From a virus, in the IMG/VR virus record IMGVR_UViG_3300025137_000055, positions 1 to 53,495 of that record: DNA of 53,495 nt. The stretch is one strand, 5' to 3'. Shown here in pieces: positions 19,342-21,995 of this stretch (its first letter is position 1; each line of letters starts with the position of its first letter). The notes beneath the pieces were generated by a model that did not search any database, was not told where the DNA came from, and was given only the letters and a program-made list of their open reading frames with translations. The position numbers were made by a program, and so were the translations under genes.

Positions 19342-20049
19342 ATGGCATTACCAAAGTTAAACTCAACACCCACATATGAAATGACAATACCTTCGTCAGG
19401 ACAGAAGGTTATTTACAGACCATTCCTAGTTAAGGAACAAAAGAATTTACTCATAGCTTTTGAGTCACAAAATAGAGGAGATCTATTGAGATCTGTAGTC
19501 AATACAATTAATATCTGTGTTGAAGATGAAATTGAGGGAACTCTATCAACATTTGATGTTGATTATATGTTTACTAAAATTCGTTCTAAATCTGTAGGAG
19601 AAGTTTCTACGGTGTTGATGAAATGTGAAGAGTGTGAGACTGATAATGAAGTAAATATTGATCTGGACGAAGTTGAAGTTGTTGGTGATATGCCTGACAT
19701 GACTATAGCTGTAACAGACGATATTGTTGTAAAGATGAAGTTTCCCACATATGAAGATTTTTTATCAAATCAAGAACTATTAGATAGTAATACTGCAACA
19801 GAAGCTTTACTTCATCTGGTCGTTAGTTGTATGGATTCTGTATTAACAGATGATGAGAGAATCTCTATAAAAGATGAACCCCAAGAAGAAATTATAAACT
19901 TCTTAGAATCTATGACAACGGATCAATTCGAAAAGATATCACAGTTTGCTGTTTCCATACCAACCTTATCAAAGGATGTGGAATTCAAATGTGAATCTTG
20001 TAATCATAATAATAAGAAAACATTAAGAGGCATGGACGATTTTTTTTGA
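19342..20049 (+). CDS. 26: Baseplate hub assembly protein gp26-like
   Basis: This 235-residue protein (T4 gp26 is 208) matches the T4-like baseplate protein pattern near the N-terminus: QKVIYRPFLVKEQKNLLIAF and VVNTINICV. It has two CxxC pairs, KCEECETDN near residue 95 and KCESCNHNN near 217, that could bind zinc. The gene ends in GAT TTT TTT TGA, with the next frame open at -1 over the T run. It stands before the tape measure, the position of tail-assembly chaperones in other phages. Confidence 0.8.
   Translation: MALPKLNSTPTYEMTIPSSGQKVIYRPFLVKEQKNLLIAFESQNRGDLLRSVVNTINICVEDEIEGTLSTFDVDYMFTKIRSKSVGEVSTVLMKCEECETDNEVNIDLDEVEVVGDMPDMTIAVTDDIVVKMKFPTYEDFLSNQELLDSNTATEALLHLVVSCMDSVLTDDERISIKDEPQEEIINFLESMTTDQFEKISQFAVSIPTLSKDVEFKCESCNHNNKKTLRGMDDFF
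20040..20049 (+). other. Candidate -1 ribosomal frameshift site (T8 run)
   Basis: Eight T at 20040-20047 give the slippery heptamer T TTT TTT in the gp26 frame immediately before TGA 20047-20049. A -1 slip enters the gp51-like frame, which is open upstream through the run. No good ribosome site precedes the TTG at 20046. Confidence 0.6.
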
Positions 20050-20228
20050 TAAATCTCTCTCACGACACTTTGACTAATTATTATCAGGTAAATTTCCAAC
20101 TGTTAAATAATTTTAACTACTCGTTGGACGAAGTGGAAGGAATGATACCTTGGGAGAGAGAGATTTACCTAACAATGTTGATGAATGATATCAATGAAAA
20201 AAATCAAAGGGCCAAACAACAAGGATAA
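20046..20228 (+). CDS. 51: gp51-like baseplate hub assembly protein, probably made by -1 frameshift
   Basis: Read alone, the frame begins at TTG 20046, which overlaps the gp26 stop, and encodes 60 residues with MIPWEREIYLTMLMNDINEK near the C-terminus, a pattern typical of small gp51-like proteins in marine T4-like phages. T4 gp51 is much larger (249 residues). The frame is -1 to gp26 and the junction is a T8 run, so a gp26-gp51 fusion of about 295 residues is the likely product. It is followed at 3 bp by the tape measure gene. Confidence 0.65.
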   Translation: MINLSHDTLTNYYQVNFQLLNNFNYSLDEVEGMIPWEREIYLTMLMNDINEKNQRAKQQG

Positions 20229-20231
20229 GAA

Positions 20232-21995
20232 ATGAGCCTTAAAAAAATAGCACAACAACTAGAATCCCAGAAAATCACTACTGATAAGATGCTAGAAAAA
20301 GTCGGCACCATAGACATGGGTATATACATTCTATCCGGTCGTGCACGTGATTCTGCTGTTCGATCTATTTTTTCTAACAATTTGATTCAGTCAATAGAAA
20401 AGAGTAATCGTGGTATACTTAAGGCAATAAGAGGATTTCAGGAAGGTAAAAAAACCGGAGATGATCTAGAAGAAAATAGAGAGAGGAAAGATTTCAATAA
20501 CAGGTTACTCAAGGCTATAGAAGGAATTCAAGGCGGAGGGAAGGTTTCAAACAAAACCGTAGATAAATCAAAAACTGTCAATAAGTCGGGTGGTTTTGGA
20601 ACTGGTATTGGAGCTGGAGTAGGCGCTGGTCTTGGATTTGCCATAAAAGGATTGGGTGCAGTCGCAACACTGGGTGCATTAGGTTTTGGTATTGGTGCAT
20701 TTTTCACTGGATTATCAGCAGGCGATAAATTAGGTGCAATGATTAACACCGACATGAGCACCATAAAAAAACAAATGGTAACATTAGGTGAGGCCTTCGC
20801 TGATACTCCCACGGAAGGTTTACTGAAAATGGGCGCTTTACTTGCGGCAGGAGGAGCATTCGGTGCATTATTTGGAGCTAAAAGTTCGGGTAAAGCGATG
20901 GTTGGTATGGGTGCAATAGGTCTTGGCTTTGGTGCATTCTTTGCTGGACTTGCGTTAGGTGATAAAGCAGGATCATGGATGAACACCGACATGTCCTCTC
21001 TCAAGAACATGATGATAAATCTTGCTGAAGGTTTAGGTGCGTTCTCTGGACAGTCACTAGTCGCTTTAGGTGCACTCTTAGGTGCAGGCGCACTATTCGG
21101 TGCAGTCGGTGGTGCAGGGGCAGCTGGTATGGCAGCAGTTGGTATGGGTGCGATAGGTGTTGGTCTTGGTGCATTCTTTGCTGGACTCGCAGCCACAGAT
21201 GGATTAATAAAAATACTCGGATTCTTCGGTGCTGATGGTACTGGGATAAGAGACTTAATGATTAACCTCGCAGCGGGTCTCAATCCACTCAGTGAACTAG
21301 ACGGAGCTAACCTGATTGCTGTCGGTAGTTCTATGGTTACTCTTGGTGGTGGATTGATTGCTCTACTAGGAGGGCAAGCACTAGGTGGCATATTGGACTT
21401 TGTTGGTAGGATTTTTGGTAAAAATGATGAAGAAGATGTATTTCAAAAAATATATAGAGGTCTTCTTCCACTTTCCACATTAAACGCAGATAACCTTCAA
21501 GGTCTTTCCGATATCGGAGAAAAAATAGATATTGTCACCAACTCAGTAGAACGTTTCGGCAAGGTCAATTTCAACAAAATTGATAGATCAGTGGCTAGAC
21601 TTGGTAAATCAATGTCCTACCTCATTCCCATGATGGGTGCTATGATTGGTAAGGGACCAAATCCTGAAAATAGATATCTTGTTGGTGAAGGATGGTTTGA
21701 TGGACAGAAAGAACTTGATTTTACGCCAGGCTTAAACTCATTCAGTGGAAAAGATATTGAAAATTTTAGTAAGGTATCATCTTTACTTAAACCAGTGCCC
21801 ACACAGGCACCCAAGATGAAGGAGAGTGTCGATACCGCCAGTCAAATTGCCGCAAATAAAACTGGAGGAAACGCAGTATTCGCACCCTCCAATAATTCCA
21901 CAAACAATACTAATAACAATAGTACTAGTTTTGTAAGTAATGGTTTATCTTCACATGATTCTATGGACCCATTTATGGGAACAAGAACTGCATAA
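20232..21995 (+). CDS. 29: Tail tape measure protein gp29-like
   Basis: At 587 residues it nearly equals T4 gp29 (590), and it follows gp26 and gp51 as in T4. The middle is a Gly/Ala-rich hydrophobic region with three 43-residue repeats at residues about 148-190, 228-270 and 308-350 (GFGAFFAGLALGDKAGSWMN type), spaced by exactly 80. The N-terminal 100 residues are helical and charged; the C-terminus is Asn/Ser rich. It would set tail length and run inside the tube. A bidirectional-looking hairpin overlaps its stop. Confidence 0.78.
   Translation: MSLKKIAQQLESQKITTDKMLEKVGTIDMGIYILSGRARDSAVRSIFSNNLIQSIEKSNRGILKAIRGFQEGKKTGDDLEENRERKDFNNRLLKAIEGIQGGGKVSNKTVDKSKTVNKSGGFGTGIGAGVGAGLGFAIKGLGAVATLGALGFGIGAFFTGLSAGDKLGAMINTDMSTIKKQMVTLGEAFADTPTEGLLKMGALLAAGGAFGALFGAKSSGKAMVGMGAIGLGFGAFFAGLALGDKAGSWMNTDMSSLKNMMINLAEGLGAFSGQSLVALGALLGAGALFGAVGGAGAAGMAAVGMGAIGVGLGAFFAGLAATDGLIKILGFFGADGTGIRDLMINLAAGLNPLSELDGANLIAVGSSMVTLGGGLIALLGGQALGGILDFVGRIFGKNDEEDVFQKIYRGLLPLSTLNADNLQGLSDIGEKIDIVTNSVERFGKVNFNKIDRSVARLGKSMSYLIPMMGAMIGKGPNPENRYLVGEGWFDGQKELDFTPGLNSFSGKDIENFSKVSSLLKPVPTQAPKMKESVDTASQIAANKTGGNAVFAPSNNSTNNTNNNSTSFVSNGLSSHDSMDPFMGTRTA

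Follow-up and report, generated by a model that had tools for sequence, protein, structure and literature searches.

Predicted −1 frameshifting at the gp26/gp51 tail assembly chaperone locus of T4-like phages, with a conserved downstream RNA stem as candidate stimulator

In the window (the whole 53,495-nt stretch of viral DNA that was analysed), a gp26 gene ends within a run of eight T residues, and a gp51-like reading frame overlapping its end continues up to a gene in the position of the tape measure. This layout raises the question of whether gp51 is a small gene of its own or the second part of a longer protein that is reached by ribosomal frameshifting. The features on which the answer depends are as follows.

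19342–20049, plus strand: gp26-type tail assembly chaperone, short form (TAC-N), 235 aa; matches PF12322 and phrog_150
20016–20228, plus strand: −1 reading frame, gp51-like, open up to the TAA at 20226–20228
20040–20046, plus strand: putative slippery heptamer T_TTT_TTT, zero-frame Phe-Phe, with the TGA stop directly after; seen in the sequence and conserved in relatives
20046–20225, plus strand: predicted C-terminal extension of the long form (TAC-NC), 60 residues in the −1 frame; matches phrog_634 and phrog_150
20054–20062, plus strand: 5′ arm of a conserved long-range RNA stem, from RNAalifold, covariation and synonymous recoding
20151–20159, plus strand: 3′ arm of the same stem, in Trp-Glu-Arg-Glu codons
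20232–21995, plus strand: next gene, 587 aa, with an ATG start; in tape-measure position, assigned by position only

A re-check of the sequence bore out the coordinates of the initial annotation and the exact −1 relation between gp26 and the gp51-like frame. The gp26 product matches Pfam PF12322 (E 2e-57) and phrog_150 (E 9e-59), and its gene ends in GAT (20038), TTT (20041), TTT (20044) and TGA (20047), with the T8 run at 20040–20047. The extension matches phrog_634 (E 1e-22) and columns 235–281 of phrog_150, and the long form predicted from gp26 plus this extension (TAC-NC) has 295 aa. A gap of 3 nt separates the end of the −1 frame (20228) from the ATG of the next ORF (20232). The window comes from an IMG/VR virus fragment, and its closest annotated phage match is C48C1, placed in the Kyanoviridae.

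We propose that, very probably, a programmed −1 ribosomal frameshift yields two forms of a tail assembly chaperone from the gp26 locus. Most ribosomes would terminate at the TGA at 20047 and release the 235-aa gp26 (TAC-N), and a minority with tRNAPhe on TTT TTT (20041–20046) would slip back by one base and translate on to 20228, producing gp26 fused to the 60-aa extension (TAC-NC). An RNA stem situated about 7 nt past the heptamer would probably pause the ribosome and set the ratio of the two forms. Both forms would be chaperones assisting entry of the tape measure into the tail, as suggested by homology to T4 gp26 and gp51 and by analogy with lambda G and GT. A point against this reading is that, in E. 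coli, U_UUU_UUU slips less than A_AAA_AAG (PMC5009743).

The T8 run is in itself ordinary in this AT-rich window, which has 12 such runs over its two strands (11.0 expected); it is position, frame and conservation that carry the case. Among 265 loci with a gp26 match, 217 distinct gp26 3′ ends were compared; separate scans with the gp26 of nt-1, HTVC008M and IG49 gave 2, 11 and 1 loci, respectively. The heptamer T_TTT_TT(C/T/A) occurs in the same frame in 216 of the 217 ends, as T_TTT_TTC in 133, T_TTT_TTT in 75 and T_TTT_TTA in 8. The exception is a truncated gene (locus L182), 99% identical to HTVC008M, in which gp26 stops early, at 1986, and the stop lacks a slippery run; this is probably a sequencing error or a decaying copy. 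In every close relative examined, GAT TTT TTT runs straight into a TAA, TAG or TGA stop and the −1 frame is retained. TTTTTTC is used by cyanophages, Vibrio phage nt-1, Aeromonas phages Aeh1 and PX29, Rhizobium phage IG49 and Pelagibacter phage Mosig, and TTTTTTT abuts the stop in HTVC008M, C48C1 and the clade of the window. The slippery run and the −1 frame that the initial annotation proposed to look for in relatives are thus kept in 216 of 217 distinct 3′ ends, the conserved unit being the heptamer and not, as first described, T8. In these comparisons, what goes beyond chance is the in-frame conservation at the end of gp26 among relatives, not T8 as such.

Codon statistics, taken over 106 representatives with less than 75% identity, point the same way. 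The first Phe codon is TTT, and the preceding codon ends in T, in all 106, with 873 TTT and 259 TTC among the 1132 Phe codons in the rest of the gp26 gene; the log10 probability that codon usage alone gives this pattern is about −41, without correction for shared ancestry. Upstream of the heptamer, by about 10 nt, the window carries a Shine-Dalgarno-like AGAGGC (20027–20032). An upstream stimulator of this type was considered and rejected: pairing with the anti-Shine-Dalgarno sequence is strong, yet not clearly above that of synonymous recodings (mean rank 0.43). A GG at −10/−11 is present in 105 of the 106 representatives inside a conserved glycine codon, and may reflect merely this conserved glycine.

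The homology to T4 indicates what the two products would correspond to. A profile of the frameshift fusion aligned with T4 gp51 over columns 17–291 of 302 (hhalign 99.1%, E 9e-19) and with T4 gp26 over columns 14–241 only (99.5%), ending just past the Phe-Phe; T4 gp51 itself matches PF12322 over residues 1–201 and phrog_150 end to end (13–280 of 282). By these alignments T4 gp26 and gp51 are one family, the short form corresponding to gp26 and the long form to gp51 over its full length. Since gp51 matches the whole fusion and gp26 only its upstream part, T4 would encode the short and long forms as two genes. Genes 26 and 51 are divergent neighbours in T4, JS98, Aes012 and a Raoultella phage, with a gp51 of about 250 aa. 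The homologous Phe-Phe reads TTC TTT in gene 26 of T4, JS98 and the Raoultella phage; in this comparison the slippery run is missing where two genes make it unneeded, which provides a natural control. The proposal that gp26 and gp51 are paired by frameshifting is supported for the window and its relatives but does not apply to T4 and its close kin, which have two genes and in which gp51 is the whole long form. In Aeromonas phage Aes012 (locus L095, 1238–1843) the conserved terminal Phe-Phe of gp26 has been lost, suggesting that a long form encoded by a gene of its own leaves the short form free to diverge. A separate match was found in the 32-kb record MG010123.1 of Staphylococcus phage SAJK-IND (25876–25998), with 38.1% identity to query residues 7–48; many gp51 genes of coliphages share this stretch and identity, a sign that the record may be mislabelled or contaminated. 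The fusion by slippage that the initial annotation foresaw is supported by the conserved heptamer, the −1 frame and the alignment of the fusion to T4 gp51.

Downstream of the heptamer, RNAalifold predicted for the window clade a single helix, exactly 20054–20062 with 20151–20159, which has 9 bp and starts 7 nt after the heptamer; 97.2% of its cells are paired, compared with at most 78.9% in slid registers. A 12-bp alternative register is possible in the window (20050–20061 with 20156–20167; window MFE −31.1 kcal/mol, z −3.5); this register showed no covariation within the window clade, and the 9-bp register is therefore preferred. Over all 102 sequences, 80.7% of the cells are paired. Stems that start near the spacer were also scored in the 106 representatives: a strong long-range stem was present in 66, a strong local hairpin in 35, and at least one of the two in 88, and the best of both exceeds recodings with a mean z of 2.18. 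At about nt 4–29 after the slip, most of the T_TTT_TTA lineage (L258, L239, L242, L268, L235 and L263) has a local hairpin, perfect or nearly so (for example GGGCTCTC ACAT GAGAGCC), that replaces or accompanies the long-range stem. From these scores, the other lineages appear to have a long stem or a local hairpin at that place, more than coding explains.

A somewhat unlikely reading, although the strongest of the alternatives, is that the frameshift is real while the stem arises from codon conservation (CTC TCT CAC; TGG GAG AGA GAG) and is not a stimulator. Both arms do lie on conserved residues, RNAalifold across all lineages returned an empty consensus without structure, and the covariation comes from a few wobble pairs. 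Against this, the pairing beats recodings that preserve the protein: the 120 nt after the slip had a mean folding z of −2.24 with permuted codons and −2.66 with usage-matched codons, where a control stretch within gp26 scored −0.76. A helix scan limited to third-codon positions ranked extension nt 9–21 with 114–102 first of 405 wobble-wobble helices. Compensatory cells numbered 8 in the window clade (3.3 in shuffles) and 48 overall (28.5 in shuffles), neither count being reached by any shuffle, and several lineages without the long stem bear a local hairpin at the same place. Structure, selection and covariation together make the downstream stem probably a candidate frameshift stimulator. Whether, more generally, the stem tunes the frameshift of T4-like chaperone genes we regard as evenly balanced; it would do so from a near-constant place a few nt past the heptamer, closing either across some 90 nt inside the extension gene or locally as a hairpin, with much the same 5′ arm having swapped partners in evolution.

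The reading that gp51 is a separate small gene, translated by coupling from the TTG in the gp26 stop or from a later ATG, is very improbable. It draws on the TTG at 20046–20048, the sole early start codon of the −1 frame in the window, which overlaps the gp26 stop, and on the short gp51 genes that databases list, for example in C48C1, HTVC008M, S-SM1 and P-HM1. These listings are not uniform: S-CAM1, Aeh1, ACG-2014j and ACG-2014d leave the extension out, and the annotation of C48C1 starts it part-way (about 35 aa). The untruncated extensions all have 57–69 aa in the −1 frame and a well-conserved core (LSH..L..YY..NF.L...YSL.E.E.M.PWEREIY). Their first ATG, GTG or TTG lies at a median of codon 18, inside the conserved domain, and 68 of the 106 representatives have none before codon 10; this start-poor first part is strongly conserved nonetheless. 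Five of the 106 representatives do have a start codon within the first three codons, as the window does with its TTG, and these tell against the frameshift; in most relatives the conserved −1 frame lacks an initiator of its own, and the window is an exception that few share. Many relatives read TTA instead of TTG at that point because their stop is TAA or TAG. Moreover, T4 gp51 has both parts in a single chain, and separate initiation leaves the conservation of TTT TTN and of the −1 frame unexplained.

With the same very small probability, RNA polymerase slippage on T8 would add a base and bring gp51 into frame in a fraction of the mRNA. Transcriptional slippage is known at long runs, and T8 is a homopolymer; but 141 of the 216 relatives carry just T6 followed by C or A, which fits tandem tRNA slippage better, the codon phase is invariably T_TTT_TTN, and polymerase slippage would give no role to a downstream stem at ribosome spacing. 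An error of sequencing or assembly at the homopolymer, conceivable for a T8 within a metagenomic contig, has a negligible probability and is already refuted by conservation: the break recurs in every close relative, across many samples, and in T6C-bearing isolate genomes. Programmed ribosomal frameshifting remains our preferred explanation.

The proposed chaperone function relies on homology and analogy. For T4, both gp26 and gp51 are given as hub assembly chaperones in PMC3004832, where gp51 is described as required yet absent from the final particle. An AlphaFold2 model of gp26 (mean pLDDT 86.6) had no match with E <0.001 in a Foldseek search of the PDB; the tail assembly chaperone HK97 gp13 (2OB9_B) had the top probability among the matches listed (0.84; 62 columns, rmsd 4.2, E 0.69), a likeness that covers part of gp26 only. 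The initial annotation called the next gene gp29-like. The 587-aa product showed no Pfam or PHROG match and no recognised homology to the annotated tape measure of HTVC008M, and the profile of its ORF family had no similarity to T4 gp29 (hhalign probability 0.2); with homology undetected, gp29-like applies by position only.

How does this locus compare with known systems? The lambda G/GT heptamer differs from the T_TTT_TTT found here. Another difference is the conserved downstream stem in the T4-like phages. Lambda makes a short chaperone and, in lesser amount, a −1 extended form from genes that precede the tape measure (PMC5009743), which the layout predicted here resembles. Ahead of the tape measure, the TAC locus of the Vandenendeviridae (Pseudomonas phage Adele) likewise carries a −1 frameshift, its GTTTTT motif being invariant (PMC12846349); this is another phage family, and the likeness drawn is one of arrangement. 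The nearest system is the TAC-N/TAC-NC pair of T4-like phages, which is of the same protein families as T4 gp26 and gp51; the marine clade of the window differs in having T_TTT_TTT directly against the stop. The abstract of the 2022 study by Vladimirov and colleagues reportedly names T4 genes 26 and 51, with frameshifting kept in several T4-like groups. Later work credits that study (Vladimirov, Gautam and Davidson, Virology 2022, 566:9-15, doi 10.1016/j.virol.2021.11.003) with identifying the TAC genes of T4-like phages; a 2016 review had still given T4 as the exception (PMC5009743). The citing papers further describe some T4-like phages that, in place of frameshifting, carry one short gene alongside a longer fused one (PMC10885494), and polyT slippery sequences in TAC-N genes of T4-like phages (PMC12846349). 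The idea that gp26/gp51 is the counterpart of lambda G/GT agrees with Vladimirov et al. (2022) as cited in these two papers. To the extent that the citing papers convey it, the frameshift arrangement of T4-like phages was in print in 2022 and is not new; the new part is the conserved downstream stem, of which no description was found in the literature searched, where the 2022 study is represented through papers citing it.

These results extend the known T4-like arrangement to an uncultured marine clade and add a candidate stimulator. The 216 sequences, many from uncultured marine phages, confirm that gp26/gp51 of T4-like phages would be one chaperone in two forms, and in T4 the same chaperone is spread over two genes and the slippery run has disappeared. 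The second part, the extension, is missed or truncated in several public annotations. The covarying stem is a directly testable candidate stimulator, with natural long-range and hairpin versions for comparison.
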